In this document: positions 4,753-27,972 of the stretch, piece by piece
How the letters are laid out: every line of letters starts with the position of its first letter
How positions within the stretch are numbered: the stretch's first letter is position 1
Source: a virus
Strand: one strand, 5' to 3'
Length of the DNA: 42,053 nucleotides
Virus record (IMG/VR): IMGVR_UViG_3300006736_000016
Location: 1-42,053 of that record
Translations under genes and position numbers: made by a program
The notes under the pieces: model-generated
Database searches by the model: none
Told to the model about the DNA's origin: nothing
The model's input: the letters and a program-made list of their open reading frames with translations, nothing else

Positions 4753-4922
4753 TGAGTGAATATAAATATAAATTAGTAAAAGCTGTGATGAAGAAAGTGA
4801 AGAAAGAGGACTCTGGGATCTTAAATGGACTACTCAGAAAAAATGCTGATTCAGAATATTGGGATAATATGATGGCATTATGTGTAGAAATGTTAGATGA
4901 AGTAGGTGAAGAAGATGAGTAA
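4752..4922 (+). CDS. Unknown 56-aa protein between GroES and GroEL
   Basis: ATG at 4752 overlaps the GroES stop (TAATG). The gene ends inside the GroEL start (GATGAGTAA). The N-half is basic (V-M-K-K-V-K-K), the C-half acidic and helical. Tight coupling to both chaperonin genes suggests co-expression, not necessarily a shared function. Confidence 0.65.
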   Translation: MSEYKYKLVKAVMKKVKKEDSGILNGLLRKNADSEYWDNMMALCVEMLDEVGEEDE

Positions 4923-6504
4923 AGATATAATATACGGTGAAGAGGCTAGAGATAAATTATTATTAGGAGTTCAAGCAGTAACAAAAACTGTATCTCCTAC
5001 ATTAGGCCCAAAAAGTAAAACAGTTGTATTAGAAAGTCCATATGGTGCTCCAAGTATTATTAATGATGGAGTTACAATAGCGAGAAATATTGACCTACCA
5101 GATTCATTTGAGAACTTAGGAGCTAAACTACTTATTGAAGTTGCTTCTCAAGCACAAATAAATGCAGGTGATGGTACTACTACTGCTTCAGTTTTAGCAA
5201 ATGCTCTTTGTGAAGAGGGGCTAAAGATGGTAAAAGCAGGTGCATTAGTAACAGAAATTAAGGCTCAATATGATTTAAGTATCAAATTAGTATTAGATGA
5301 ATTAGAAAAGATGGCAGTTCCAGTAAAATCAAAAGAGGATATTACTAAGATTGCTACGATAGCATCAAACAATGATGAGGAAATAGGAAAATTAATCTCA
5401 GAAGCAATAGAAGCTGTTGGTGAAACAGGTGTAATTATTGTTGAAGAAAGTAAAGATATGCAAACTAAAGTTGAGTTAGTAGAGGGTATGGAACTTGAGA
5501 ATGGTTTTATATCTAACATAATGGCTACAAATCAAGAAGAAATGGTTACTGAGTATGAAAACCCCCTCATTTTGACAACAAATTTTAGAATCATGAATTT
5601 TCAGGATATTTTACCAGTTCTTGAATTATCTCTACAAGAAAAACGGCCCCTTTTAATATTGTGTGCAGATTTAGAAAATACAGCATTGACTAATATGACT
5701 ATTAATTTAATGCAAAAGACCATACAATGCGTGGTAGTAAAAGTGCCGGATTTTGGTGAAGATCAAATTGAAAGAGCAATAGACATAAAAACTATTGTTG
5801 GTGGTTCAGTATTTACAGAAGAGACAAATGACACATTAGAAAATATCACTCTTAAAGATTTAGGGGGTGCGGATAAGGTTATTATTAATCAAGAAACAAC
5901 TACTATAGTTGGAGGCGCTGGAAATATTGTAGATGTACAAGATCGTAGCACTATTTTAGCTAATCAAATAGATAAAGCTAATAATGAATGGATTGAATCT
6001 AAACTTAGAAATAGATTAGGTAAATTATCTGGTGGTGTAGCTGTGCTACACATTGGATCATTAACTTCTGTAGAAATGAAAGATAAAATGGAAAGAGTAG
6101 ATGATGCATTAAATGCTACTAGAGCAGCAATAGAAGAAGGTATCGTAGTAGGTGGTGGAATAGCATTAATTAAGGCTAGTCAAGTAATTAAGGAACACTT
6201 CAAAGAAAATGAAATAGGAGCAAATATAGTATATGAAGCACTACAGAGACCTGCACTTCAAATAGCTGAAAATGTAGGAGTAAGTTCATATGAATTTGTA
6301 TTAGCTACTGATAATGATAAACCAAATTACGGATTAAATGCTCTAACTGGAGTATTTGTAAATTTATTAGAAGCAGGGATAATTGATCCAGTTAAAGTTA
6401 CTAGGTCAGCATTAGAAGCAGCAGGATCAATTGCTGGAATGATATTAACAACAGAAGTATTAGTAGTAGAAAGAGATATTGAAAATAAAGAAGAAATAGA
6501 ATAA
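4915..6504 (+). CDS. groEL: Chaperonin GroEL (group I), 529 aa
   Basis: ATG 4915 is preferred over GTG 4906 because AGGTG lies 7 nt before it. Group I signatures are clear: K-D-I-x-Y-G-E-E-A-R at the N-terminus, T-L-G-P-K (about 34-38), G-D-G-T-T-T-A nucleotide motif (about 86-92), D-D-A-L-N-A-T-R-A-A-I-E-E-G-I-V with the ATPase Asp, and G-G-G-I-A-L. It is not a thermosome. The apical substrate face differs from E. coli: the G-Y-L-S-P-Y-F region reads G-F-I-S-N-I-M. The Gly-Met tail is replaced by an acidic one. It probably folds virion proteins with the virus GroES. Confidence 0.95.
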   Translation: MSKDIIYGEEARDKLLLGVQAVTKTVSPTLGPKSKTVVLESPYGAPSIINDGVTIARNIDLPDSFENLGAKLLIEVASQAQINAGDGTTTASVLANALCEEGLKMVKAGALVTEIKAQYDLSIKLVLDELEKMAVPVKSKEDITKIATIASNNDEEIGKLISEAIEAVGETGVIIVEESKDMQTKVELVEGMELENGFISNIMATNQEEMVTEYENPLILTTNFRIMNFQDILPVLELSLQEKRPLLILCADLENTALTNMTINLMQKTIQCVVVKVPDFGEDQIERAIDIKTIVGGSVFTEETNDTLENITLKDLGGADKVIINQETTTIVGGAGNIVDVQDRSTILANQIDKANNEWIESKLRNRLGKLSGGVAVLHIGSLTSVEMKDKMERVDDALNATRAAIEEGIVVGGGIALIKASQVIKEHFKENEIGANIVYEALQRPALQIAENVGVSSYEFVLATDNDKPNYGLNALTGVFVNLLEAGIIDPVKVTRSALEAAGSIAGMILTTEVLVVERDIENKEEIE

Positions 6505-6775
6505 ATTAATAAATTAACATACTAAGCATGATACTTCAAGGCTTGGAGTCAAAAACAACATGATTAGTAGCAAAGAATAACTGAGTCATTTTGATTTAGT
6601 TAGTTAAGATAAAGTACTCATTATGAAGGAGAAAACAACAACTAAAACTACACGCCAACCTTTATAGAGTATGTAATACTACATATTATTGCTGAGAAGC
6701 ACGATTTTGTAGCGGATTTAAGTAAAAGATTATGTATAGTTTTTTAGAAAAACAGAAAAAAAAAGAGGAATGAAA
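6505..6775 (+). promoter_or_regulatory. 271-nt leader before a strongly initiated gene pair
   Basis: No convincing gene is present; a 14-codon ATG frame at about 6621 is likely chance. Features are a possible TATA-like ATGTATAG near 6732, a hairpin GTTTTT/AAAAAC (about 6738-6752) and an A run leading to GAGGAATGAAAATG. The length and position suggest an independent promoter/leader for 6776-7355. Confidence 0.4.
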
Positions 6776-7141
6776 ATGGTAGATATAGCAGCATTAGAAA
6801 ATACATTGAATGAGCAATTGGAACAGGGTTTAATTACAGACCACGAGTTCCGAAGAATTATGGGCAGAGCAACAGGTGGCGTTTATCTTGACGCAGACCA
6901 ACAAGAAGCATACAATGCAGCACAGGATTGGGCTGCAGGTGTTTTAAGCACACTAAATAAGCTTCATATTGTAGGCCCTAAAAGAATGGACAGCACTGGT
7001 AGAAAGTTAAACACTAACCTAGTTAAGTTTATTGCAAAGGGCGGAAACATTGGAGAAGATGGTTCTCCAGATCTTTCAGAAGTGAATGCTTGGGTTGTTA
7101 CTGAAGCTGAAACATCAGAATCTGAAGATTCAGAAGAGTGA
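6776..7141 (+). CDS. Unknown acidic-tailed protein, 121 aa
   Basis: GAGGA lies 7 nt before ATG 6776; the ATG at 6770 is too close to it. A soluble helical domain (T-L-N-E-Q-L-E-Q-G onward, then A-Y-N-A-A-Q-D-W-A-A-G-V-L) is followed by a basic stretch and an acidic Ser/Glu tail. Codon use is richer in G and C than in the replication genes, as in the 178-aa gene, which also has an acidic tail. It lies 10 nt before the ubiquitin-like gene, so it may be its partner or target. The family is unrecognised. Confidence 0.75.
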   Translation: MVDIAALENTLNEQLEQGLITDHEFRRIMGRATGGVYLDADQQEAYNAAQDWAAGVLSTLNKLHIVGPKRMDSTGRKLNTNLVKFIAKGGNIGEDGSPDLSEVNAWVVTEAETSESEDSEE

Positions 7142-7151
7142 GGCGGTTAAA

Positions 7152-7355
7152 ATGGTAAAGGTCACAATACTAAACGAAACCGGACACACTGAATTAGAGA
7201 TGAGTGCGTTTGAGACAAAAGAGCAAATTATGGATCACCCTACACATTGGGTATATGTAGATGGTGAACTTGTTAGTAGAACAGAAGTAAACAACATTAA
7301 TTTTGAACAAGTAGATGATGTGACCCTTACACAAGCAATTGTTGGGGGCTACTAA
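7152..7355 (+). CDS. Ubiquitin-like (ThiS/MoaD-type beta-grasp) candidate ending GGY, 67 aa
   Basis: ATG 7152 after GAGGCGG. The predicted order is beta (V-K-V-T-I-L-N), beta (E-L-E-M-S-A), helix (E-T-K-E-Q-I-M-D), beta (H-W-V-Y-V-D-G-E-L-V), then D-D-V-T-L-T-Q-A-I-V-G-G-Y. This matches the ThiS/MoaD layout, including the x-D-x-V-x-L-x-x-x-I-x-G-G ending; lengths agree with that family. One Tyr follows the di-glycine, so a peptidase would be needed to expose it. The same virus encodes an E1-like protein and a JAMM peptidase at 14510-15571. The assignment rests on pattern, not on alignment. Confidence 0.6.
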   Translation: MVKVTILNETGHTELEMSAFETKEQIMDHPTHWVYVDGELVSRTEVNNINFEQVDDVTLTQAIVGGY

Positions 7356-7365
7356 TCCCACCTGG

Positions 7366-7405
7366 TTTTTTTGGCACCGTTTTTCCTAAAAAAGCGGGCG
7401 TTTTA
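7366..7405 (+). terminator. T-rich terminator after the ubiquitin-like gene
   Basis: T7 (7366-7372), T5 (7380-7384) and TTTT (7401-7404) follow within 50 nt of the stop codon, with little stem formation. Archaeal RNA polymerase ends readily at such T tracts. Confidence 0.5.
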
Positions 7406-7426
7406 TATTCACTAAGAGTGATAACC

Positions 7427-7753
7427 ATGGGTTATATTAAAGAATTAGTATTAGATTTCTTGAAGGCTATTCAAGTAGGTTATAATAATTTTAAACGCTC
7501 TTATTCATTAAATAGAGGCATGACTAAAACATTAGCAATACATCATAAATTAGTAAAAGAAAGGGGTCATTGTGGCGCTTTTCTAATAGAGATAGAAACT
7601 TACATTGATGATATTAGTGATGAAGATATATCAATATGTGTTGATGACTTTATTAATTGGGCTGAAACAGTAAATGACGAATTTCCTGATATTGCACCCA
7701 AAAAAGAACCAGAATGGGAAGAAGTTTTGTCTTATCAAAGGCATAAAAGCTAG
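7427..7753 (+). CDS. Unknown 108-aa protein whose stop lies in a tRNA
   Basis: ATG 7427 is preferred (GAGTG 6 nt upstream); GTG 7418 is the alternative. The N-half is basic and aromatic (G-Y-N-N-F-K-R-S-Y), the C-half acidic (D-D-I-S-D-E-D-I), probably helical. It is similar in outline to small phage proteins of unknown role. The TAG stop (7751-7753) is part of the 5' acceptor strand of the tRNA that follows. Confidence 0.65.
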   Translation: MGYIKELVLDFLKAIQVGYNNFKRSYSLNRGMTKTLAIHHKLVKERGHCGAFLIEIETYIDDISDEDISICVDDFINWAETVNDEFPDIAPKKEPEWEEVLSYQRHKS

Positions 7754-7832
7754 GGTTTCCGAGTTTGGTCAAAGGAGCCGGACTTAAGCTCCGGTGTTTA
7801 GTACTTCGTAGGTTCAAATCCTACCTCTAGCA
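7749..7832 (+). tRNA. tRNA-Leu (anticodon UAA)
   Basis: 84 nt. Acceptor GCTAGGG (7749-7755) pairs with CTCTAGC (7825-7831), discriminator A 7832, no encoded CCA. Anticodon stem CCGGA/TCCGG with loop CTTAAGC, giving anticodon TAA at 7785-7787. A long variable arm follows, as required for class II tRNA-Leu, and the T-arm is GTAGG-TTCAAAT-CCTAC. It reads UUA, by far the commonest Leu codon in these AT-rich genes, so it probably supplements the host supply. It overlaps the preceding coding sequence by 5 nt. Confidence 0.93.
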
Positions 7833-7858
7833 TCAAGTTCTAATAAGGAGAAATTAAT

Positions 7859-8011
7859 ATGAAAATAATAAAAAGAATAAAAGCGAGAATTGATAGAAGT
7901 GCATATGTAGATTTATATTATGTGGCATTAAGTATAATTTTTCTCTTTACATCAGTGCTATTTTTACCAATATTGATAGCACTATTACTTAGGGTAGGTA
8001 AATTAATATGA
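7859..8011 (+). CDS. Small membrane protein, 50 aa
   Basis: AAGGAG 8 nt before ATG 7859. A basic N-terminus (K-I-I-K-R-I-K-A-R) is followed by about 25 hydrophobic residues with one Pro, then R-V-G-K at the end: one membrane pass, perhaps with a kink. It overlaps the next gene by 4 nt. The function is unknown. Confidence 0.65.
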   Translation: MKIIKRIKARIDRSAYVDLYYVALSIIFLFTSVLFLPILIALLLRVGKLI

Positions 8012-8160
8012 ATATAGAAATAAAAATAAGAATTGCGTCAGAAGGAATGTCAATTGACGAATTATTAGAATTGATAGAATGGAAATTAAAAAGTCTAAAA
8101 GATCAAATGCCAGGAAACTTTAATTTAGAAATGGCAGGTTATGAAATTTTACCTAACTAA
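8008..8160 (+). CDS. Unknown 50-aa protein
   Basis: Starts by ATGA overlap. A beta strand (N-I-E-I-K-I-R-I-A) is followed by an amphipathic helix (I-D-E-L-L-E-L-I-E-W-K-L-K). No motif is recognised. Confidence 0.6.
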   Translation: MNIEIKIRIASEGMSIDELLELIEWKLKSLKDQMPGNFNLEMAGYEILPN

Positions 8161-8268
8161 AAATAGGAAAATTTTTTGAATTTATGAAAAAAAGGGTTTA
8201 GCTGAAGAAAAAAAGGGTAATCTGAAGCCTCATGTTTTTATAGGTAATATATATGTGGAAGAATTAAA
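8161..8268 (+). promoter_or_regulatory. Short leader before the reductase pair
   Basis: No gene is present. A T6 run at about 8171-8176 may end upstream transcripts. TTTTTATAGG and ATATATATG near 8235-8253 could be TATA-like. GTGGAAG precedes the next start. Confidence 0.3.
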
Positions 8269-8703
8269 ATGAGATTAAAAGAATTTATAGAAAAATATGG
8301 TGAAGAAATGTTAGAGCATTTTATGCCGAGACAGCTTCTTGAAAAAGACCTAGAAACACTAGGTTGGAATTCTGGTGTTTTAGTATATCTGAATATTTAT
8401 GATCCTACTGCGCCAGAAGATATAGTGATTATTAATTCTAATTTCTATACAGAAGGAATAATAATGGCAGTATCTCCCAAAAGCTATATTAAAGCTGATG
8501 GTGAAACTCTATTTGAAATAAATGGAAATGTGTATAATAATACTAGAACAGCAGCACTACAAGAAGGTCGTGATATAGTGTATAATATAAATAATTGGAA
8601 TTGGAAAATAGAAAAAGAGTGGAGAATAACTTCATTGGATGGAAAATTTATTAATGTGTTTAGTAAGTTTGAAAATTGTCCAAATAATAGGTGGTTAAAA
8701 TGA
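8269..8703 (+). CDS. Unknown 144-aa protein before the reductase
   Basis: ATG 8269 with a GTGGAAG ribosome site. The protein is soluble, with several beta strands (V-L-V-Y-L-N-I-Y, I-V-I-I-N-S-N-F-Y) and a Trp-rich C-half (N-N-W-N-W-K-I-E-K-E-W). It overlaps the reductase start by 4 nt (ATGA), so the two are translated together. No family is recognised, and a link to nucleotide metabolism rests only on position. Confidence 0.65.
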   Translation: MRLKEFIEKYGEEMLEHFMPRQLLEKDLETLGWNSGVLVYLNIYDPTAPEDIVIINSNFYTEGIIMAVSPKSYIKADGETLFEINGNVYNNTRTAALQEGRDIVYNINNWNWKIEKEWRITSLDGKFINVFSKFENCPNNRWLK

Positions 8704-10562
8704 GTACATCAATAGACATATTAAGTGATATAACGATACATATGAAATATGCAAGATATTTATCGGAAAAACAGAGAAGAGAAACATGGGAAGAATTATG
8801 TCTAAGAAATATGACAATGCATATAGAAAAATATCCTAAACTTACAACAAACATTTGTGAAGTTTATAGAGATTTTGTAATTCCTAAAAAGGTTCTTCCA
8901 TCAATGAGATCAATGCAATTTGGTGGTAAGCCTATTGAAATAAGTCCTAATAGAGTTTATAATTGTGCGTATATGCCAATAGATAATATCCTAGCTTTTA
9001 GTGAAACAGCGTTTTTATTATTAGGTGGAACAGGTGTGGGGTATTCAGTTCAATTTCATCATGTTGAAGAATTACCAGCTTTAATTAAACCAAATCCTAA
9101 TAGAACTAGAAGGTTCTTAATTGGTGATTCAATAGAAGGATGGGCTGATGCTGTAAAAGTATTATTTAAATCTTATACTGGAGGGTTAACATCAACACCA
9201 GTATTTGATTATTCAGATATTAGACTTAAAGGTGAAACATTAAAAACATCAGGTGGTAAAGCTCCAGGCCCAGGCCCATTAAAAGAAGCTTTAGTTAAAA
9301 TACAAAACATCTTAGATGAAAAAGAGAACGGAGATAAATTAACTTCTCTTGAATGTCACGATATTGTTTGTCATATTGCCGATGCTGTATTAGCAGGTGG
9401 TATTCGTAGAGCAGCATTAATTAGTTTATTTTCTGCTGATGATATGGAAATGATTTCAGCTAAAAGCGGTAATTGGTGGGAAAAGAATCCACAAAGAGGG
9501 AGAGCAAATAATTCTGCTGTGTTACTAAGACATAGAATTAAATACGATTACTTCATGGAGTTATGGGGCAGAATACAATCTTCTGGATCTGGTGAACCTG
9601 GTGTTTATTTATCAAATGATAAAGATTGGGGAACTAATCCTTGTTGTGAAATTGCTTTAAGACCATTTCAGTTCTGTAATTTAACAGAAATTAACGCTAG
9701 CACTATTGAATCTCAAAAAGATCTAGAAAAAAGAGTAAAAGCAGCGGCTTTTATTGGAACACTCCAAGCTGGATATACTGAATTCCACTATTTAAGAGAC
9801 ATATGGAAAAGAAACACAGAAAAAGACGCCCTTTTAGGTGTTAGTTTAACTGGTATCGCTTCAAATAAGCTTAAAAATTTAGATATAGGTGGAGCAGTAC
9901 AGTTAGGAATGGAAGAAAATGCTAGAGTTGCTAATTTAATAGGTATAAATAGAGCCGCAAGAATAACTTGCATTAAACCTGCTGGAACAACCAGTCTAGT
10001 TTTAGGCACAAGTAGCGGTATTCATGCGTGGCACTCTGAATATTATATTAGAAGAATTAGAGTAGGTAAAATAGAAGCAATATATTCTTATCTATCTCTT
10101 AATCATCCAGAATTAATTGAAGATGATGCTACTAGACCACATGATACGGCCATAATATCTATCCCTCAGAAAGCACCTATTGGTTCTATCTATCGCAATG
10201 AGAGCGCAATAGACCTATTAGAGAGGATCAAACATTATTCTCTTCATTGGGTTAGTGCAGGGCATCGTGACGGCATGAACACTCATAATGTATCAGCAAC
10301 AGTTTCTGTAAGAGATAATGAATGGGATGAAGTAGCAAATTGGATGTGGGTAAATAGACATTATTATAATGGTTTAACAGTGCTACCTTATGATGGTGGT
10401 AAATATACTCAAGCTCCATTTGAGGAAGTTGACCATGAAATATATTCAAATTTAGCTACAAGTCTAAGAAAAATAGACTTAACTAAAATTAAAGAAACAT
10501 TCGATGACACAGATCTAACAAATGAACTTGCTTGTGCAGGTGGATTATGTGATATTGAATAA
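8700..10562 (+). CDS. nrdJ: Adenosylcobalamin-dependent ribonucleotide reductase (class II), 620 aa
   Basis: ATG 8700 after AGGTGG. It converts ribonucleotides to deoxyribonucleotides by a B12-derived thiyl radical. Visible residues are N-C-A-Y (Cys89, redox partner), N-P-C-C-E-I (thiyl Cys315, Glu317), F-C-N-L (Cys326), and a C-terminal C-A-G-G-L-C (Cys612/617) that shuttles electrons. G-G-I-R-R-A-A-L-I-S, N-N-S-A-V and G-T-T-S-L-V-L-G-T-S-S-G-I-H are typical of the monomeric class. It lacks the ATP-cone and the Tyr-radical partner, and works regardless of oxygen but needs cobalamin from the host. Confidence 0.93.
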   Translation: MSTSIDILSDITIHMKYARYLSEKQRRETWEELCLRNMTMHIEKYPKLTTNICEVYRDFVIPKKVLPSMRSMQFGGKPIEISPNRVYNCAYMPIDNILAFSETAFLLLGGTGVGYSVQFHHVEELPALIKPNPNRTRRFLIGDSIEGWADAVKVLFKSYTGGLTSTPVFDYSDIRLKGETLKTSGGKAPGPGPLKEALVKIQNILDEKENGDKLTSLECHDIVCHIADAVLAGGIRRAALISLFSADDMEMISAKSGNWWEKNPQRGRANNSAVLLRHRIKYDYFMELWGRIQSSGSGEPGVYLSNDKDWGTNPCCEIALRPFQFCNLTEINASTIESQKDLEKRVKAAAFIGTLQAGYTEFHYLRDIWKRNTEKDALLGVSLTGIASNKLKNLDIGGAVQLGMEENARVANLIGINRAARITCIKPAGTTSLVLGTSSGIHAWHSEYYIRRIRVGKIEAIYSYLSLNHPELIEDDATRPHDTAIISIPQKAPIGSIYRNESAIDLLERIKHYSLHWVSAGHRDGMNTHNVSATVSVRDNEWDEVANWMWVNRHYYNGLTVLPYDGGKYTQAPFEEVDHEIYSNLATSLRKIDLTKIKETFDDTDLTNELACAGGLCDIE

Positions 10563-10566
10563 AAAA

Positions 10567-10627
10567 GCCTAACTATATATAGTTTATAAGTAGTAATCAC
10601 AATGTATAAATTAAAGTTAGGTTTTAT
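10567..10627 (+). terminator. Hairpin after the reductase gene
   Basis: CCTAACT (10566-10572) pairs with AGTTAGG (10614-10621 region) over an AT-rich loop, followed by TTTTATATATT. It could end the reductase transcript. Confidence 0.4.
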
Positions 10628-10654
10628 ATATTATTGAAGAATAAATTATGACTA

Positions 10655-10680
10655 AGGCTGCCTATCAGAGCCTGTTTTTT
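10655..10680 (+). terminator. Intrinsic-type terminator
   Basis: AGGCT (10655-10659) pairs with AGCCT (10669-10673), followed by GTTTTTT to 10680. It is a second stop signal before the next transcription unit starting at 10713. Confidence 0.5.
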
Positions 10681-10712
10681 ACAAATCTGATTAAAAAAGG
10701 AAGTGTAACACA

Positions 10713-10988
10713 ATGAGTGAAAACGATATGAATGAAAATGAAGAAATAGAAGAACCTATGGAAGAAGTAATAGAGGAAGAAAAAGAACAAGAAGTTTGGA
10801 GAGTAACAACAATGAAAGCTAATGGTAGTGTATGGACAAAAACATATACTCAAGTTGAAGATGTTGGGAATGCTCTATATGAATTAGTTTATTCTTATCC
10901 TCATATTATAATCAGTAGACAAACTTTAAAAACATCACCGTCAGAATATAGAAGGAATAATAATGGTGAAGAAAGACAAAAATCCTGA
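10713..10988 (+). CDS. Acidic N-terminal small protein, 91 aa
   Basis: AAGGAAG upstream of ATG 10713. The first 28 residues are almost all Glu/Asn/Asp. Then follows a small beta domain (V-W-R-V-T-T-M-K-A-N-G-S-V-W-T-K-T-Y) and a helix. The acidic arm could mimic DNA or bind a basic partner; this is inference. It overlaps the next gene by 26 nt. Confidence 0.65.
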   Translation: MSENDMNENEEIEEPMEEVIEEEKEQEVWRVTTMKANGSVWTKTYTQVEDVGNALYELVYSYPHIIISRQTLKTSPSEYRRNNNGEERQKS

Positions 10989-11130
10989 ATATGTAAAAGG
11001 TAGAGGTTCAAAGAAAGAAATACCTACTAGATGTAGGATTTGTGGTGGTCAATTGACTGATCCTTTCTTTGAATTTAAACATGGTGCACATAAAGAATGC
11101 GTTGATAATTTTAAGTCAAACGTTTTTTAG
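10963..11130 (+). CDS. Zinc-finger micro-protein, 55 aa
   Basis: AAGGA 6 nt before ATG 10963. It has a basic N-terminus, then C-R-I-C-G-G (Cys24, Cys27), H-G-A-H and E-C: a C-x2-C...H-x3-H/C arrangement typical of a small zinc knuckle. It probably binds nucleic acid or a protein partner. Confidence 0.65.
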   Translation: MVKKDKNPEYVKGRGSKKEIPTRCRICGGQLTDPFFEFKHGAHKECVDNFKSNVF

Positions 11131-11147
11131 AAATAGGAGGAATATAA

Positions 11148-11387
11148 ATGAAATATGTAGATTATAAAATAGTAGAAGATAGAGATTTACCGGCTTTAAT
11201 TATTAAAGATACTGGTGATGGTGGCATTGAAATAGTATTAAATACTTATCACAAAGACTGGTTAGCATTGAATAGAAATACTATACCAGGAATAGTTAAT
11301 AGTTTAACAGAGAAATTACAAGAGATAGCAAATTCTATATTAGAAGAACGATACACAATGGATAAGTGGAATAATGACGAGAATTAA
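11148..11387 (+). CDS. Unknown 79-aa protein
   Basis: AGGAGG 7-8 nt before ATG 11148. A beta-rich half (V-D-Y-K-I-V-E-D, A-L-I-I-K-D, I-E-I-V-L-N) precedes an amphipathic C-terminal helix. It overlaps the next gene by 14 nt. No family is recognised. Confidence 0.65.
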   Translation: MKYVDYKIVEDRDLPALIIKDTGDGGIEIVLNTYHKDWLALNRNTIPGIVNSLTEKLQEIANSILEERYTMDKWNNDEN

Positions 11388-12573
11388 TCCAGGTGCAAGA
11401 GCAGGAGCCTTGCTTAGAGCAGAAGGCGATGAAAATAATAATAAAAAGGCATATACTGCATTATCAACTAGATTGTTAAGGTTATCTAATTCAGATGATT
11501 ATGAAGAAGCTAAACATGAATGGATAGTAACAGGTAATGTATGGTATATACCTTCGCAATATTATAATGAAGTATTGCCAGAAATACATTTAGATAACCA
11601 TAATGGATATTGTGTATGTGGTCATCCTATTCATTGGCATTTTGAAATTCAAAATACTGAGAATAATACTTTAGAAATAGTAGGTTCTGAATGTGTTGAG
11701 AATTGGATGATTATCAGACATTTAAAAGAAGTTAAAGGTTTGAAAGATGATGAAATTACTGAAGAAAAAATAGCTGAATGGATGAAAGCAGCAGTTAAAA
11801 GCATGAAAGCTGAATGGTGGTGGAGAGAGAATGGTGATGATTTTGAAGAAATGTTTAATGCTGTAAAAGAAATAGATGCTAGATTTTCTGTAAGGTTTAG
11901 TAGAACAATATGGTGTTCTGATACTCAACGATATGAAAAGACATATAAACTCGCTAAATCCAGTGCTAATAGTTTAAGTGGTTTTGCTTCTATTGTATGG
12001 AGATGGAATCATCCTAGAAATCCAAAAAGACAAATAGAAACTAGGGGTTATCCCAATAAAAAATTATGGCGTGAAATTCAATTATTATTTGCTAGACTAC
12101 AAAGATATAATAATAAAATGGTTGCTCATGATACAGAAAGATCTGATAGAGTAAAAGAAATACAAAGTGAAAGAATAAGGATGACTTTAGCTCATGAAGA
12201 AAGACAAAGAGTTCTAGAAGAACAAAGAAAGTTAGCAATAAAATTAAGAGAAGAAACTTATACTGCCACTCAACAAAAGAATTTTGAAACATTGTGTGAA
12301 TATTATGATATTCCTACATTTGCAAACACAGATGCTACTTCTAGATGGGAACAAGATTTTCTCCATAATATAAAAGGTAGAATGTGTGATGATAAAGACT
12401 TAACAGATAAACAATTAAATAAATTGATGACAATATTAAAAAATACTGCTTGGTTAAATAAAGCTAGTACACGACAATTAAAATATATCAAAGATTTAGG
12501 AGGATCAATAGATGGTATTGAAACTAAGAAGGATGCCTCCGCTTTAATAAAAGAACTTAAGATGGAAAAATAA
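11374..12573 (+). CDS. Zinc-motif protein with coiled coil and C-terminal repeats, 399 aa
   Basis: Three parts are visible. (a) About 72-105: C-V-C-G-H-P-I-H-W-H ... G-S-E-C-V-E-N-W, a Cys/His motif seen in many phage and giant-virus proteins of unknown role. (b) About 235-300: a highly charged helix (E-R-I-R-M-T-L-A-H-E-E-R-Q-R-V-L-E-E-Q-R-K), probably a coiled coil. (c) About 345-399: two short helical repeats starting L-T-D-K-Q-L-N-K-L and A-S-T-R-Q-L-K-Y-I-K-D-L-G. Such proteins often lie beside virus replication or transcription genes. No enzymatic residues are evident. Confidence 0.7.
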   Translation: MTRINPGARAGALLRAEGDENNNKKAYTALSTRLLRLSNSDDYEEAKHEWIVTGNVWYIPSQYYNEVLPEIHLDNHNGYCVCGHPIHWHFEIQNTENNTLEIVGSECVENWMIIRHLKEVKGLKDDEITEEKIAEWMKAAVKSMKAEWWWRENGDDFEEMFNAVKEIDARFSVRFSRTIWCSDTQRYEKTYKLAKSSANSLSGFASIVWRWNHPRNPKRQIETRGYPNKKLWREIQLLFARLQRYNNKMVAHDTERSDRVKEIQSERIRMTLAHEERQRVLEEQRKLAIKLREETYTATQQKNFETLCEYYDIPTFANTDATSRWEQDFLHNIKGRMCDDKDLTDKQLNKLMTILKNTAWLNKASTRQLKYIKDLGGSIDGIETKKDASALIKELKMEK

Positions 12574-12589
12574 TATAAAGGTGTTAATA

Positions 12590-13837
12590 ATGACAGATGA
12601 TGAAGATATGTGTAAAATAGGGTTTGAAATATCATCTCCTGATGATGAAAGACAATTAAGTGGAACTGATATTTATTGTAAAGAATTTAAAAATATAAAT
12701 CTATATGCGGGGAGAAGATACTATTATCAACAAAGAAGAGTAATAGTTATTTCTCCTAGAAGACAAAATAGAAAAGATGGTCAGGATATTTACATACAAC
12801 AGATTACCTTAGCTTTAAGGCGCAAAATTAATATTAGAGAGCTTATTAAAAATTCAAAAAGAAAATCTATATATATGAGAGTAGGCAAAGCAAAATATTT
12901 AGTTGCTTTTCGTAAGGATGGTATTAGATATGCATGTAATGGTATGGTAGCTAATTTTGATATTTTAATTAGTGCTCTTGCTAAAGTAGTATATAGATCG
13001 TGTTTTATTGATGATGAAGAAGCTTTAGATGATTACTTTGTAAAGTGTGTAGAATTACCAGAAAATATCCAATATGTTATAGAAAATAGGGCTCCATATT
13101 ATTTCTTTGAAGAGGGAATTAAACAAGAAGTAAGAATTAATGTTCGTCAAATAGGCAAAGATAAATTTGCATTAGAAATTAGTAATGGTATATGGGGTGA
13201 AATGAATTTAAGAGATCTAAATACTTTTGTAAACTCCTTCTTAAAAGGTCATAGAAAAGGTAAATGGCATAGAATATCCCCTAAAAGTTTATGGGAAACT
13301 TTATTAGATAAAGAGATTACACCAGCGCAAGAGAAGTTAATGTTAGAATTTTTAAAGCAAAATAGAACTCAAGATATTGTTGACCAAAGAGCAATGGAAT
13401 TATTTGAATCTTTAGATAAAAGATTTAAGAAAATAAAAAGAGTAAAATGGAAGAAAACTGACAAAACTAAAGGAAGTCAAATAGTAGATGGATTGGTGAT
13501 AAGAGGGTTTTATGCTGATTGGTTGCTATTAGATACTGCAATGAAACATGAATTTCAAGAAGTAACTACCTATGTTTTAGTTAAAGAAAGCAATATGGGA
13601 AGAGGTATGCCTAACCCTTATCCATGTGATAAAGAATTAGTTTGGTCTGGCCCTATTTGCATAGACAATATGCAAGGCGGCGCATCAAAAGGAGATCAAT
13701 TTGCTACTAGAGCATTAGCTTGTATGAATGATAAAACTTTAATACAAAGGGTATCTACAGTAAAAAATTATCTTGGTGATTTAGAAGATAATCAAATAAA
13801 AATAAGGTTGGATTGGGATGCCTTGTCTGTTATGTAA
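12590..13837 (+). CDS. Unknown 415-aa protein upstream of TFB
   Basis: ATG 12590 is chosen over GTG 12581 because AAAGGTG lies 6 nt before it. The N-half is beta-rich and basic (A-G-R-R-Y-Y-Y-Q-Q-R-R-V-I-V-I). The middle has a helical segment (I-T-P-A-Q-E-K-L-M-L-E-F-L-K-Q-N). The C-part contains N-P-Y-P-C-D-K-E-L-V-W-S-G-P-I-C-I-D. It overlaps the TFB gene by 20 nt and is in one chain with the E1-like and JAMM genes, so it may belong to that group. I could not match it to PRTRC components or other families with confidence. Confidence 0.7.
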   Translation: MTDDEDMCKIGFEISSPDDERQLSGTDIYCKEFKNINLYAGRRYYYQQRRVIVISPRRQNRKDGQDIYIQQITLALRRKINIRELIKNSKRKSIYMRVGKAKYLVAFRKDGIRYACNGMVANFDILISALAKVVYRSCFIDDEEALDDYFVKCVELPENIQYVIENRAPYYFFEEGIKQEVRINVRQIGKDKFALEISNGIWGEMNLRDLNTFVNSFLKGHRKGKWHRISPKSLWETLLDKEITPAQEKLMLEFLKQNRTQDIVDQRAMELFESLDKRFKKIKRVKWKKTDKTKGSQIVDGLVIRGFYADWLLLDTAMKHEFQEVTTYVLVKESNMGRGMPNPYPCDKELVWSGPICIDNMQGGASKGDQFATRALACMNDKTLIQRVSTVKNYLGDLEDNQIKIRLDWDALSVM

Positions 13838-14513
13838 TTGTAAAGACTTAACCTTTTCTAATGTATATAATTGTAGAGTGTGTGATAATTGTGGATATAT
13901 TATGATAGGGATAATATTTGATAACCCTATGATGTTTACCCCTAGCAAAACCAAAGATCATTATCTAAATGGTAACTTAGAAGCATATGAAAGAACAGAA
14001 GTGTCATTAAATATGTTAGGTTCACAATTTAGTATTGACCAAAAGTTATTAGATAAAACTTATATTAAATTTAAGTCTTGTTTAATGCATGGTTTATTTA
14101 AAGGGTATACAGATGATGAAAGAGCTGTAGCTGCGTTATATATAACAATGCAAGAAAATAATAATAAAGTAATAATTAGGAATTATTGTAAGTTTATGGA
14201 TGTAGATTATAATAGATGTTTACGTTTAGCAAAGAGTATATCTAAAGTAATAATAATCACAGATTATAAAGCTTATATAAGAAGCACTGATATACTAACG
14301 GAATTAATATTAGAAGATTTAGTATTTGGTGTAATTAAGAAATTAGAAGATAAACATATAACAGTAACTAAGAATATAATAGCAGCAGTAATATATAATG
14401 AATTGAAGTTAAATTCATATGAAATAACCCAAGCTAAAGTTTGTGAAGTATTTGGGTTAAGTATCAGTGCTTTAAACAATATGTTAAATAAAATAAAAGA
14501 GGAATTAGAATGA
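13818..14513 (+). CDS. tfb: TFB/TFIIB-like transcription factor, 231 aa
   Basis: N-terminal zinc ribbon with C-L-L-C-N-C (3-8) and C-R-V-C-D-N-C (19-25). Then come two cyclin-type repeats: E-R-A-V-A-A-L-Y-I-T ... R-N-Y-C-K-F-M-D-V-D-Y-N-R-C (about 95-140) and I-T-V-T-K-N-I-I-A-A-V-I-Y ... I-T-Q-A-K-V-C-E-V-F-G-L-S-I-S-A-L (about 178-222), the latter a TFB-type helix-turn-helix. It is shorter than cellular TFB (about 300 aa) because the ribbon-core linker is reduced. It probably directs host RNA polymerase to virus promoters. It shares a 4-nt overlap with the E1-like gene. Confidence 0.8.
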   Translation: MPCLLCNCKDLTFSNVYNCRVCDNCGYIMIGIIFDNPMMFTPSKTKDHYLNGNLEAYERTEVSLNMLGSQFSIDQKLLDKTYIKFKSCLMHGLFKGYTDDERAVAALYITMQENNNKVIIRNYCKFMDVDYNRCLRLAKSISKVIIITDYKAYIRSTDILTELILEDLVFGVIKKLEDKHITVTKNIIAAVIYNELKLNSYEITQAKVCEVFGLSISALNNMLNKIKEELE

Positions 14514-15067
14514 GAAAAGTATTAATAATAGGATGTGGTGGTATAGGAAGTTTCTTAATACCATTATTAAATAAAACAGGATTGTATGAAATAGATGTGT
14601 ATGACCCAGACATTGTGGAAAAGAAAAATATATCGTATCAGAACTTTGAGGTTCCAGATATTAATAAAAATAAAGCAGAAGTATTTGAAGATAAGTATTA
14701 TTCTGTAAAAGGTTATCCGTTCTTGGTATTGACTAATAAACAACTGCAGGGTTATGATTTAGTGGTGTGTTGTGCTGATAACATTAATATTAGGAAAACT
14801 TTATACCTCACCGATGATATAAATTGGTTAGACTTAAGGGCGCAGGGCAGGGCTGGAATAATTTTATCCTTTTTAGAAAAGCCCGAATTGTTTGTTGAGT
14901 TAAGTAACGGGCCAGAAGGATCTTTTTCTTGTCAAGGTGAAGCGTGGGAAGGAGAAAAAGAGGCTCTTCATTATATTCATGTTGCAATAGCAGGTTGTGG
15001 TGCAGAATGGATACAAAGATGGTTTAATAAAGAAAAGGTTTTAACCCATAAATTAATTAACATGTGA
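14510..15067 (+). CDS. Short E1-like (ThiF/MoeB fold) adenylyltransferase, 185 aa
   Basis: The Rossmann start is at once at the N-terminus: I-I-G-C-G-G-I-G-S (6-14), Asp32 in Y-D-P-D, N-I-S-Y-Q (40-44, matching the S-N-L-x-R-Q motif but with the Arg replaced), N-K-N-K-A-E (52-57, ATP lysine), C-A-D-N-I-N-I-R (88-95). Cys141 in F-S-C-Q is a possible thioester residue. Family members activate the C-terminal Gly of ThiS/MoaD/ubiquitin-like proteins. It is shorter than ThiF (about 245 aa), without the N-terminal Arg helix and the Cys4 zinc site. The JAMM gene follows 9 nt later. Confidence 0.8.
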   Translation: MRKVLIIGCGGIGSFLIPLLNKTGLYEIDVYDPDIVEKKNISYQNFEVPDINKNKAEVFEDKYYSVKGYPFLVLTNKQLQGYDLVVCCADNINIRKTLYLTDDINWLDLRAQGRAGIILSFLEKPELFVELSNGPEGSFSCQGEAWEGEKEALHYIHVAIAGCGAEWIQRWFNKEKVLTHKLINM

Positions 15068-15076
15068 GGAATATAA

Positions 15077-15571
15077 ATGACAGAAAATAAAGATTGGAAT
15101 AATTGTGTAAATGCTATAAATCAAACATTTGCAAGAGTAAGAAACGAGTTTAAAAATGAAAAATTCTTGAGTGCTATTTGGAATGCATCAACAGCAGTAC
15201 TTCCTGGATTAGAAGTATCAGTAATTGTCGATAAAGATGATAAACTATTTTGTAGTTATGGTTCTCCTGGATATGTAGATTATAGTATTCCTCCAAAAGG
15301 TATGAAAATACCTATTAAATGTTGGATACATACTCATCCTTTTGGAAAAGCTTATTGGAGCGGTACTGATTGGAATACAATTCATATTTGGAAAAGTATA
15401 ATGGAATATGCTATTGTTTTAGGTGGGGATAATGAAATGCATTGGTTTAAAGAAGGATCGCAAGAATATTGTAAAAGAATAGCAGAACCAGTACCAGTAT
15501 CATCATCAAATCATGTAAGGTGTGGATATAAAACAGATTTAATGGGTGGTGAAGATGATAGAAACGATTGA
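15077..15571 (+). CDS. JAMM/MPN metallopeptidase, 164 aa
   Basis: The exact JAMM signature H-x-H-x7-S-x2-D is present: His85, His87, Ser95, Asp98 in W-I-H-T-H-P-F-G ... W-S-G-T-D-W. Glu46 in G-L-E-V-S is the likely catalytic acid. Known members remove ubiquitin-like proteins after Gly-Gly or mature them. Here the 67-aa protein ending G-G-Y is an obvious candidate substrate. There is no NlpC/P60 partner domain, so it is unlike the lambda tail K protein, and it lies among regulatory rather than tail genes. Confidence 0.85.
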   Translation: MTENKDWNNCVNAINQTFARVRNEFKNEKFLSAIWNASTAVLPGLEVSVIVDKDDKLFCSYGSPGYVDYSIPPKGMKIPIKCWIHTHPFGKAYWSGTDWNTIHIWKSIMEYAIVLGGDNEMHWFKEGSQEYCKRIAEPVPVSSSNHVRCGYKTDLMGGEDDRND

Positions 15572-15923
15572 ATTCCCTGTACCATACCCAACATTAGTTA
15601 GTTGCCCCTTTTGTATAAAGGGGTGTTTAGCTTGTGATGATGGGGTAGTTAAAATTAATAAGAGAGAAGCATGGGCTCAAATTCAGAGACCCCATGTAAT
15701 TAAATTCTTAGCAGATAATATTGATACAGTTAGTAGAGAATTAACAACCTTGTTTAAGATCTCTCCTTCAATAGAAACTATAAAGAATGTAAATAGTAGT
15801 GGGAAATGGAGTATTGTTGAAATAAGAACTACTCAAGGTAGTACATGGATAGCAATACCAATAGAAAAAAGGAAACCTATATATTTTGAATCAAAAGAGG
15901 AGATGGACAGATGGTTAGTATAA
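15555..15923 (+). CDS. Cys-rich protein after the JAMM peptidase, 122 aa
   Basis: ATG 15555 is preferred (GGTGGTG upstream); overlap with the JAMM gene is 17 nt. Residues about 17-27 read C-P-F-C-I-K-G-C-L-A-C, a tight four-Cys zinc site. The rest contains a helix and a beta sheet (W-S-I-V-E-I-R-T-T, T-W-I-A-I-P-I). It lacks an E2-type active-site context, but by position it could be a partner of the E1/JAMM pair. Confidence 0.65.
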   Translation: MIETIEFPVPYPTLVSCPFCIKGCLACDDGVVKINKREAWAQIQRPHVIKFLADNIDTVSRELTTLFKISPSIETIKNVNSSGKWSIVEIRTTQGSTWIAIPIEKRKPIYFESKEEMDRWLV

Positions 15924-16168
15924 GAGAAATAAGAAGAATATTCGGTGCTGTTGCACCAGAAAGACAATTGACGCCAGAAGCAATAGAAGAAATACAAAAG
16001 AGAGCAGAAATGTTAGTGGCACAATTAGCAAAAGTATCTAATGATATTGCTGCTTTAGAAACAAAAAATTGTAGATTAAAAGGACAACATATAGAAAGAG
16101 CATATTTGTCAATTATGGATGATTCATTAAATGAATTATATAATTTTGGAGAGGATATAAATGAGTGA
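15911..16168 (+). CDS. Histone-fold-like protein, 85 aa
   Basis: ATG 15911 after AGAGGAG (8 nt). The layout follows archaeal histones: short helix S-I-R-E-I-R-R-I-F (3-11), loop with A-P-E-R-Q-L (15-20), long helix (21-51), loop N-C-R-L-K-G-Q-H-I (53-61) in place of R-K-T-I-K-A-E-D-I, then helix E-R-A-Y-L-S-I. The long helix appears a few residues longer than in HMfB. A C-terminal acidic extension follows. It may package or shield virus DNA, or modulate host chromatin. Confidence 0.5.
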   Translation: MVSIREIRRIFGAVAPERQLTPEAIEEIQKRAEMLVAQLAKVSNDIAALETKNCRLKGQHIERAYLSIMDDSLNELYNFGEDINE

Positions 16169-25295: not shown

Positions 25296-25534
25296 ATATT
25301 ATATATTATATTAGTGATAGACCATTAATTATGTTACTAATACTTATAGTAGCAATTGTGTTGATTTATCCTATTGAAACATATATACTAATACATTCAC
25401 TATTAGTTGAGGAAGATAATCTTTCTAAACTTGAGGAGAGTGAAAAAATCCTTTACGGCGAAGATAGCGAAAATAGTGAAGTATATAAATTTGATATAGA
25501 AGAATTTAAAAAACAGTTGGAGGAAATGAAATGA
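25292..25534 (+). CDS. Membrane protein with acidic tail, 80 aa
   Basis: ATGA overlap with thyX. Residues 12-36 form one long hydrophobic segment; the remainder (about 40-80) is acidic and helical, presumably cytoplasmic. It overlaps the polymerase gene by 4 nt. It may anchor replication proteins to the membrane, but only position suggests this. Confidence 0.65.
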   Translation: MNIIYYISDRPLIMLLILIVAIVLIYPIETYILIHSLLVEEDNLSKLEESEKILYGEDSENSEVYKFDIEEFKKQLEEMK

Positions 25535-27972
25535 TAATAGTAAACAATAAAAGCAATAACTCTATTCACCTACGATGGAGAGATAAAGGTGAGAGAAGAA
25601 CACAAGAAATAGTAGATTTTAAACCTTATTTTTTCATTGAAGCTACAGAAGCTAGACCACGCTTCTTTACTTACAATAGATATTGGAGAGGAAAATCAAC
25701 TCAAAGAAATGCTCCTTTAAAATATGAAGAAGGTTATTGGAATAATATTGATGGTGATAGATTAACTAAAGTAATTTTACAATCTCCTAATGATATGCGA
25801 AAAGCTAAAGAACAATGGCATAAAACTTATGAGGCTGATATAGGTTTAGCTACAAGATATGCTGTTGATAAATTAAGACAGGTAAAAGAATATAAACTAC
25901 GTAAATGGTATTTTGATATAGAAATGCAAGTAGGTGGAAGATATGATAAACAAATTAATGCTATATCTATATATGATAACTATGATAAACAATATTATAC
26001 TCTAACTTGGTTTCCAAAAGAGCCTCTTCCTAAATATGAAGGGGTTAAAGTATTTGAGGATGAAGAGGATATGTTACTTTACTTTGTGCAACTTATGGAA
26101 AGTAAAGATCCAGATATGCTTATTGGTTGGTATATACTTGGTTTCGATATTCCATATATAATAAAAAGACTTATTGAAAATAAAATTAATCCTAGAAGAA
26201 TGAGCCCTATTAATGATATACAAGGAGCAACTCATAATAAAATGTATGTTGAAAAATATGTTAATGTAGCTCAACCTATTAAGGGTAGAATATGTTACGA
26301 TTTAATGCATCATTTTGAAAGACTATGGTTAGATTCTCAAAGAGGTACATTGGCTTCTTTATCATTAGACTTTTGTTCTAAAAAAGCATTAGGCGATGAT
26401 GCTGGTAAAAAACAATCATCTAAATTTACTAAAGATGAATTTTTCAAAAAGGCGTGGTTAGAAGATACAGAGAATTTTTTAGAGTATAGCAAAATAGATG
26501 TAGAACTTTTAGTGCGTATTGATGAAACGATGAATGTAAGTGAAAACACATTAGCACTACAACGGCTATTAGTATGCCCAATAGAAAATACATTTCATAA
26601 TAGTCAAATGGGAAGTGTGTATTTTATGAGGAATGCTTCATGGAAAGCGCCAACAGGAAAGAAAGGAAATAAAAGAAAATACGATGCGGCATTTGTAATA
26701 GACCCCGAATTAGAAAACACGTTTGGACTTCATAAGAAAGTTGCTGTGTTTGACTTTAAGGGATTGTACCCATCTATGATAGCATCAAGGAACATTTCTT
26801 GGGAAACCAAATGCGATGATTTAGAAGATGGATATATAGTAGATTGGGATACGCCTAAAAATTTAAGAGAGCATACTAAGGATTGTTCAATCAAGTTTAA
26901 GCAAGGAGAACGGGGTCTATTGCCTTCTGCTGTACTGAATCTAAATGCTCTTAGAACTACCTATAAACAGCGTATGAGAGCCGCTATTGACGATAACGAG
27001 GCTACTATGGTTCAACGATGGAACGCCGCTCAAATGGCTGTAAAACGAGTAGTCAATGCCTTTTATGGGATTTTATCAAAGGATGGATATGGATGGTCTG
27101 ACATTGATCTATCTAAGTCAATTACAGCATCAGCGAGGGAAGCAATGCGTGAAGTAGCGTTTAAGGCTATTAGCTTAGGCTATACCGTACATTACGGACA
27201 TACGGATTCTATCTTTGTTCAAGTAGAATCGGTTGATGATGCTGCTGCCCTATGTGACCAATTAAACTCTTTTATTCAAACTGAAATATTTGATGATTAT
27301 GTTGAATTAGAATTTGAAAAGTATGCTGAATCATTTTTCTTAGCTAAGAAAAAGAATAGATATTGTGGATATTTATCATGGATAGATGGTAACTATTTAA
27401 ATGATCCAGAATTCTTTGTGATGGGATTTGAAACTAAGAAAAGTAATGAAACTCCTTATGCTAAAGATTTTCAAGAGACAATTTTAAAAATGGTTGCACA
27501 GGGTTCATCTTCGGTAGAAGTAACGACAAAGGCTAAATCTAAGTATTTTGAATTAAAAGAGGGGTTAGTAGATCCTAATTTGATTATTAAAAGAAGCAGA
27601 CTTAGAAGAAATTTAGAAGAATATAGATCTATAGGTGGCGGTGTAGCAGGAGTTTATTATTATAATAATCATATTGCTAAAAATAAAGAAGAACAAATTT
27701 TAGATGGTGACAGTTTTATATACTATCAAGTAGACAATAGTAGTGTAACTAATTACCCCCGAATCTTTTATGTTAAAGGTAAAAGACGGGATATAAGATA
27801 TATTGCTGCAACTGGTATAGATAAAGTAATTAGTGAATTTAAACCAAATTGGGATAAAATTGCTGATGCAGAAATTATTAAGAAAATATCTTTAATATAT
27901 GATAGTATGAAATGGGATATAAGAGAAGTTATGGATGATGGGAAACAAACAAAATTAATGGATTGGTGGTAA
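25531..27972 (+). CDS. polB: Family B DNA polymerase, 813 aa
   Basis: Proofreading: Exo I F-D-I-E (Asp129, Glu131), Exo II L-G-F-D-I-P-Y, Exo III Y-S-K-I-D. Polymerase: motif A D-F-K-G-L-Y-P-S (Asp408), motif B K-R-V-V-N-A-F-Y-G (Lys505), motif C Y-G-H-T-D-S with catalytic Asp559 but His557 where most family members have Asp. Arg codons in about 26900-27230 are often CGN, while AGA dominates elsewhere. The replicative enzyme of the virus, acting with the clamp and loader above. Confidence 0.95.
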   Translation: MIIVNNKSNNSIHLRWRDKGERRTQEIVDFKPYFFIEATEARPRFFTYNRYWRGKSTQRNAPLKYEEGYWNNIDGDRLTKVILQSPNDMRKAKEQWHKTYEADIGLATRYAVDKLRQVKEYKLRKWYFDIEMQVGGRYDKQINAISIYDNYDKQYYTLTWFPKEPLPKYEGVKVFEDEEDMLLYFVQLMESKDPDMLIGWYILGFDIPYIIKRLIENKINPRRMSPINDIQGATHNKMYVEKYVNVAQPIKGRICYDLMHHFERLWLDSQRGTLASLSLDFCSKKALGDDAGKKQSSKFTKDEFFKKAWLEDTENFLEYSKIDVELLVRIDETMNVSENTLALQRLLVCPIENTFHNSQMGSVYFMRNASWKAPTGKKGNKRKYDAAFVIDPELENTFGLHKKVAVFDFKGLYPSMIASRNISWETKCDDLEDGYIVDWDTPKNLREHTKDCSIKFKQGERGLLPSAVLNLNALRTTYKQRMRAAIDDNEATMVQRWNAAQMAVKRVVNAFYGILSKDGYGWSDIDLSKSITASAREAMREVAFKAISLGYTVHYGHTDSIFVQVESVDDAAALCDQLNSFIQTEIFDDYVELEFEKYAESFFLAKKKNRYCGYLSWIDGNYLNDPEFFVMGFETKKSNETPYAKDFQETILKMVAQGSSSVEVTTKAKSKYFELKEGLVDPNLIIKRSRLRRNLEEYRSIGGGVAGVYYYNNHIAKNKEEQILDGDSFIYYQVDNSSVTNYPRIFYVKGKRRDIRYIAATGIDKVISEFKPNWDKIADAEIIKKISLIYDSMKWDIREVMDDGKQTKLMDWW

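Follow-up and report, generated by a model that had tools for sequence, protein, structure and literature searches.

Can a virus of archaea encode a ubiquitin-like modification system of its own and, if so, what would the virus do with it? The locus that raises this question lies in IMG/VR record IMGVR_UViG_3300006736_000016, of which positions 1 to 42,053 were analyzed as one stretch of 42,053 bases (the window). It encodes a 67-residue ubiquitin-like protein (Ubl) with a Gly-Gly near its C-terminus, a predicted adenylating enzyme of the E1/ThiF type (here E1), and a predicted JAMM metalloprotease (Table 1). That these three make up a real set we regard as nearly certain. As for what the set does, the reading we favor, at a probability of about 0.6, is an archaeal, SAMP-style reversible protein modification that would work without an E2 and be undone by the JAMM enzyme. 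An initial annotation of this DNA had proposed a dedicated virus-encoded set of this kind; its coordinates all check out, and the proposal is supported by the presence of the set in 75 of 75 loci.

How general is the set? A scan with a Ubl profile finds 215 viral contigs that encode the Ubl. Among 50 Ubl-bearing records, 49 have the E1 and the same 49 have the JAMM gene, and in the one that has neither the contig stops 3.9 kb past the Ubl. In all 75 non-redundant loci, Ubl, E1, and JAMM are found on one strand and in that order, together with a homolog of the transcription factor TFB and a 418-residue protein that we call p418. Because possession of Ubl, E1, and JAMM was the criterion for picking these loci, a fairer test is to sample records by their family B DNA polymerase (PolB). 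Of 28 records sampled in this way, 17 have the E1 and all 17 have the JAMM gene as well, including one with a PolB just 37% identical. The 11 records that lack the E1 extend at most 12.3 kb 5′ of PolB, when the E1 of relatives is found about 10.5-14 kb upstream; another six, with E1 and without Ubl, extend 1.5-5.7 kb 5′ of the E1, and elsewhere the Ubl is found 2.5-8.3 kb upstream. The co-occurrence that the initial annotation proposed as a check is observed, and E1 and JAMM appear without the Ubl only where the contig ends nearby. We find nothing that contradicts universality, but contigs as short as these do not establish it. By their co-occurrence, Ubl, E1, and JAMM are a fixed set of core genes in the virus group. 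Within the module, mean pairwise identity is highest for the Ubl (64%, as high as RNR) and the E1 (58%), with JAMM at 41%.

What kind of protein is the Ubl? The beta-grasp fold suspected at the outset is borne out by an AlphaFold2 model with the order b-b-a-b-b-h-b (pLDDT 82.8), in which residues 65-67 are disordered, and a Foldseek search of the PDB with this model returns ubiquitin, NEDD8, SUMO, and ISG15 for almost all of its top matches. Direct searches of Pfam, PHROGs, NCBIfam, PADLOC, and the PDB gave zero meaningful matches. When its profile is compared by HHalign with a profile of 13 ThiS sequences, a relationship also suggested early on, the two align over their full length (residues 1-66 to 3-69, E-value 1.6e-5), in register, Gly-Gly falling on Gly-Gly. 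The score of this alignment is 29.4, versus at most 17.7 in 100 full column shuffles and at most 18.6 in 100 shuffles that keep the end. The predicted fold, the homology to ThiS, and a C-terminal Gly-Gly conserved in 75 of 75 sequences place the Ubl in the ubiquitin-like/ThiS-MoaD beta-grasp superfamily. A mechanically called start at 7086 has no support from relatives, and the ATG at 7152 was taken.

The C-terminal end is the most telling part of the protein. The VGG is invariant (75/75), and all 73 distinct Ubl open reading frames have [AV][IV]VGG as the last residues of their conserved part. On the other hand, what comes after VGG is hypervariable: no residue at all in 11 of the 75 sequences, and one to nine residues in the other 64, the tails being none (11), Y (9), CY (8), NY (5), SC (5), and others up to SCTIDDDDY. 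The initial annotation had emphasized an end in GGY; the Gly-Gly stands, and the Tyr, which is not conserved, looks like one of many disposable ends, and incidental. An invariant VGG with a variable tail is the signature to be expected of a Ubl that is trimmed. Moreover, lysine makes up 1.2% of Ubl residues; the figure is 6-9% for the other proteins encoded alongside it and 3.8% for bacterial ThiS/MoaD. Of the 75 Ubls, 22 have no lysine. We read this scarcity as probable avoidance of self-acylation by the activated end, which would fit conjugation best and is also compatible with a carrier.

The E1 matches PF00899 ThiF with an E-value of 3.2e-16, and in the window it displays the motifs GCGGIG, K55, and CADN. 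Its nearest folds by Foldseek are UBA5, Cap2, and ThiF (TM 0.82), with AclA and MccB also among the matches. ThiF is the closest family in the library search, the profile also matches E1-E2 models, and among viruses it matches PRTRC_ThiF and crAss001 ThiF. GxGGIG, D32, D34, K55, D90, and C141 are invariant in 75 of 75 sequences. In its fold and in the residues of its ATP site (GxGGxG, DxD, Lys, Asp), the protein matches the E1/ThiF enzymes. Three other features of these enzymes, the Arg finger, the arginine of NLxRQ, and the zinc site, are absent. Compared with E. coli ThiF and MoeB, the protein has neither the N-terminal stretch that bears the Arg finger/Arg helix nor the CxxC pairs of the structural zinc site (Cys88 and Cys141 are the only invariant cysteines), which agrees with the minimal enzyme described in the initial annotation. 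We also observe that the Arg of NLxRQ has become Tyr43 (NLxYQ) in 74 of 75 E1s. Further invariant residues are R95, D108, R110, Q112, and R114, and we consider that R95, R110, and R114 could replace the lost arginines. Cys141 is the sole invariant cysteine of the crossover loop, and it aligns, in a region where the alignment is loose, to ThiF Cys184, the position of the ThiF acyl-disulfide chemistry. The protein is not an ortholog of UbaA by the model NF047750 (29.6 bits, with a cut-off of 450).

The JAMM protein has in the window the site HTHP-x6-S-x2-D, which had been recognized as complete, plus the catalytic Glu46, which had not been listed. In the relatives, E46 is present in 75 of 75 and H85, H87, S95, and D98 in 74 of 75 (there is one alignment gap), and the combination of Glu with HxH-x7-S-x2-D is that of the JAMM/MPN+ family. 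Prok-JAB matches 21 of 24 family members (best E-value 1.2e-4), and the closest solved relatives are AMSH-like (AMSH-LP, E-value 8e-4), with Rpn11-type deubiquitinases matching more weakly. The variable tails fit the earlier proposal that JAMM trims the Ubl. But tail removal cannot be its sole job, because the site is intact in every one of the 11 viruses with a Ubl that already stops at Gly-Gly. The simplest second job would be the removal of the Ubl from its targets.

A cycle in four steps can be proposed from these observations. First, JAMM would cut off whatever tail follows Gly-Gly. The E1 would then bind ATP and adenylate the C-terminal Gly (Gly66 in the window), and the activated end would be passed to lysines of other proteins, perhaps via the invariant Cys141; the Ubl, having almost no lysine, would seldom tag itself. 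Finally, JAMM would take the tag off again, which would explain why JAMM is retained where the Ubl already ends at Gly-Gly. The fixed place of the set beside a TFB homolog suggests host or viral transcription proteins as possible targets. In Haloferax, SAMP2, UbaA, and JAMM2 mark TBP2 for degradation (PMC4895103), which gives the tagging of a basal transcription factor a parallel in archaea, and HvJAMM1 acting on SAMP1-MoaE (PMC4443979) is a precedent for JAMM reversal. Tentatively, we would go further and propose a self-contained viral pathway of Ubl conjugation that every member of a large group of viruses of marine archaea would possess and that would act on the transcription machinery. Its E1 would represent a novel minimal class, with neither Arg finger nor zinc and with Tyr in place of Arg, and would hand a nearly lysine-free modifier directly to its targets; p418, with a cysteine in the motif GPICIDN, could be a transfer enzyme or the target.

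Several observations weigh against tagging. The AlphaFold2 model of the Ubl is of moderate quality, and its Foldseek matches are weak (E-value 0.02, TM about 0.4). The closest relative of the Ubl is ThiS, a sulfur carrier, and that of the E1 is ThiF. The E1 lacks two arginines that serve adenylation in MoeB/ThiF. Both adenylation and conjugation are predictions from sequence. No E2 or E3 was found, although a search of 33 records with E2 hidden Markov models had 0 matches in the control genomes as well. And the host may supply sulfurtransferases.

This last point leads to the main rival, which we think doubtful and still the most serious one: the Ubl as a sulfur carrier, whose end is activated by the E1 and converted to a thiocarboxylate by a host sulfurtransferase, the sulfur going to tRNA or to a metabolite, while JAMM frees the end or releases the product as in the Mec/CysO or quinolobactin pathways. 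The kinship with ThiS and ThiF speaks for it, and so does archaeal SAMP2, which serves both as tag and as sulfur carrier. Bacteria moreover have simple sulfur operons of Ubl, E1-rhodanese, and JAB (PMC1779556). But sulfur operons often carry a rhodanese, and the E1s of non-metabolic Ubl-JAB operons are without one (Iyer et al. 2006, PMC1779556). We find no rhodanese in any of 33 large records, using a search with a positive control in 13 of 14 genomes, and no rhodanese domain on the E1; nor did we identify a sulfur-acceptor or metabolic enzyme in the conserved neighborhood. A host could provide them, so none of these results is decisive.

It is improbable that the set mainly disturbs a host SAMP/Ubl pathway as counter-defense or decoy, JAMM stripping host tags and Ubl and E1 competing, with no specific tagging. 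It is true that Borg elements encode deSAMPylase-like JAMMs and SAMPs in large numbers (PMC12660748), and bacterial hosts turn Ubl conjugation against phages (PMC10097602). But a decoy needs neither an E1 with its ATP site fully kept in 75 of 75 loci nor a Ubl that varies as little as a metabolic enzyme does, and counter-defense genes are usually patchy, when this set is found throughout the group. Least probable of all is an E1-like protein that no longer adenylates, having become a binding or redox protein next to a merely structural Gly-Gly end: the missing Arg helix and the change to NLxYQ would suit it, but the ATP-site residues, C141, and the Gly-Gly are invariant, and the new invariant arginines could stand in for the lost ones.

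Which known systems does a tagging set of this kind resemble? One is SAMP/UbaA/HvJAMM1 and JAMM2 of Haloferax volcanii, with a beta-grasp modifier ending in Gly-Gly, a single E1, a JAMM that reverses the tag, and no E2 or E3 found. Unlike in Haloferax, the set is virus-encoded and genetically linked; unlike UbaA, the viral E1 has 185 residues and neither zinc site nor Arg helix, and the viral Ubl usually needs tail removal. In aligning to ThiS and ThiF, the Ubl over its full length, the viral proteins are also like ThiS/ThiF and QbsE/CysO-type carriers. QbsE-type carriers are also known to have short tails beyond Gly-Gly, another likeness to the viral Ubl. In contrast to those carriers, there are no sulfur enzymes identified alongside, and the viral JAMM is AMSH-like. 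With bacterial Bil and CBASS Cap2-Cap3 the viral set shares reversal by JAMM, and its E1 matches Cap2 and E1-E2 models by profile and fold; it differs in having no E2 domain and in being encoded by the virus and not the host. Membership in PRTRC, which the initial annotation had cited among known Ubl operons, is not supported. PRTRC also combines ThiF and JAB proteins, with a Ubl-like protein C, on a mobile element, but the viral E1 scores 35 bits (E-value 8e-9) against a PRTRC_ThiF cut-off of 145, the viral Ubl matches neither Prok_Ub nor a family in any library searched, and no other PRTRC genes were identified. Finally, the crAss-like phage cr126_1 (L260:3382-5648) has adjacent genes like Prok-JAB (E-value 3e-4) and ThiF (E-value 3e-15) in a tailed-phage replication module. 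Its E1 has 337 residues, is about 32% identical over half of the query, and has no Gly-Gly Ubl identified with it; the pair may be another Ubl system carried by a virus.

Ubl systems of prokaryotes have been described in cells and in defense against phages, and piecemeal in phages themselves. The magrovirus literature that we searched mentions neither ubiquitin nor ThiF, and we found in it no report of an archaeal virus with Ubl, E1, and JAMM together among its core genes; coverage of that literature is incomplete, and earlier notice elsewhere is possible. If such a complete set is truly core, the life cycle of these viruses would rely on protein tagging or on Ubl-based sulfur transfer. Probably the viruses modify proteins, or else carry sulfur, while they infect their hosts. 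The minimal E1 raises the question of what adenylation really needs, and the viral set bears on the origin of ubiquitin signaling from sulfur carriers. Three small proteins are also a compact set amenable to laboratory testing.

Table 1. Features of the window discussed in the text, in order of position.
Feature	Coordinates	Strand	Remarks
Chaperonin	4906-6504	+	
123-residue protein	6770..7141	+	directly 5′ of Ubl; no family; close relatives only, outside the conserved core
Ubl, ThiS-like beta-grasp, 67 residues	7152..7355	+	ATG 7152, stop 7355; ends AIVGG-Y
tRNA-Leu (TAA)	7749-7832	+	just 3′ of Ubl
399-residue protein	11374-12573	+	
p418, 418 residues, no known family	12581..13837	+	upstream of and overlapping TFB; 75/75 loci
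TFB/TFIIB homolog with zinc ribbon	13818..14513	+	PF00382 7.5e-5, just under cut-off; upstream of E1 in 75/75 loci
Minimal E1/ThiF-like adenylating enzyme (predicted), 185 residues	14510..15067	+	PF00899, Foldseek, conserved ATP site
JAMM/MPN+ metalloprotease (predicted), 164 residues	15077..15571	+	starts nine bases after E1
Four-Cys protein (CPxC..CxxC)	15555 (or 15546)..15923	+	overlaps JAMM end; four Cys invariant; 62/75 loci
Small histone-like protein	15911-16168	+	CBFD_NFYB_HMF E 0.008, below cut-off
PolB	25531-27972	+	

The initial annotation had seen the E1 and JAMM genes in one gene chain with a TFB homolog and a histone-like protein, from which it conjectured a control of transcription or chromatin. 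The coupling to TFB stands: its stop overlaps the E1 start by 4 bases (ATGA) in the window, and it overlaps or abuts the E1 in about half of the loci and is at most 1.7 kb away in the rest, with 25% mean pairwise identity. The link to the histone-like gene is not conserved: among the gene families shared by 35% or more of the loci, this gene was not found. With TFB, p418 overlaps in the majority of loci; it has 32% mean pairwise identity and no homolog in the PDB or Pfam. Its invariant residues (Cys360 in GPICIDN, D372, Q373, R377, N383, and D384) look like those of an enzyme active site. GPICIDN recalls the E2 site GxIC[LI]D, yet p418 was rejected as an E2, with no Pfam or PDB match and a probability of 0.4% in an HHalign comparison to a single Prok-E2_B protein, a weak test. 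The four-Cys protein has no convincing homolog, and we judge its match to PheRS to be a CxxC coincidence. The 399-residue protein upstream of p418 has a Cys-rich segment, CVCGHPIHWHFEI...VGSECVENW, is widespread in relatives, and has no meaningful Pfam match.

Which virus is this? Pfam identifies in the window TFB, a chaperonin, RNR, an ATP-dependent DNA ligase, an RFC small subunit, ThyX, and an ERCC4/HHH nuclease; PolB was read from the sequence and from matches to haloarchaeal virus PolBs, and we suppose that a PCNA-like protein is encoded as well. Magrovirales are described as Poseidoniales-associated viruses of 90-110 kb with a GC content of about 31% and with TFB, RFC, PCNA, PolB, and GroEL (PMC10768690). 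Gene content, GC content (28-35%), and the size of relatives (84-101 kb) agree with that published description, on which the comparison is based, and the window looks like a magrovirus, a tailed virus of Poseidoniales. By inference, the hosts of the group belong to this lineage, which is among the most abundant archaea of the ocean. The only cellular homologs found are on three contigs (L110, L111, L112) of one bacterial 'Altibacter' metagenome-assembled genome (NZTP01). They encode unlike copies of the viral Ubl and probably come from viruses, having been binned wrongly into a reference genome.

Three other features of the window deserve mention. The chaperonin reads as group I (GroEL-like) in an archaeal-type virus, the same as described for magroviruses. 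The tRNA-Leu gene could help in host matching. And PolB is one gene in the window and in its closest relatives, while in most other relatives the matches are split over two separate open frames.

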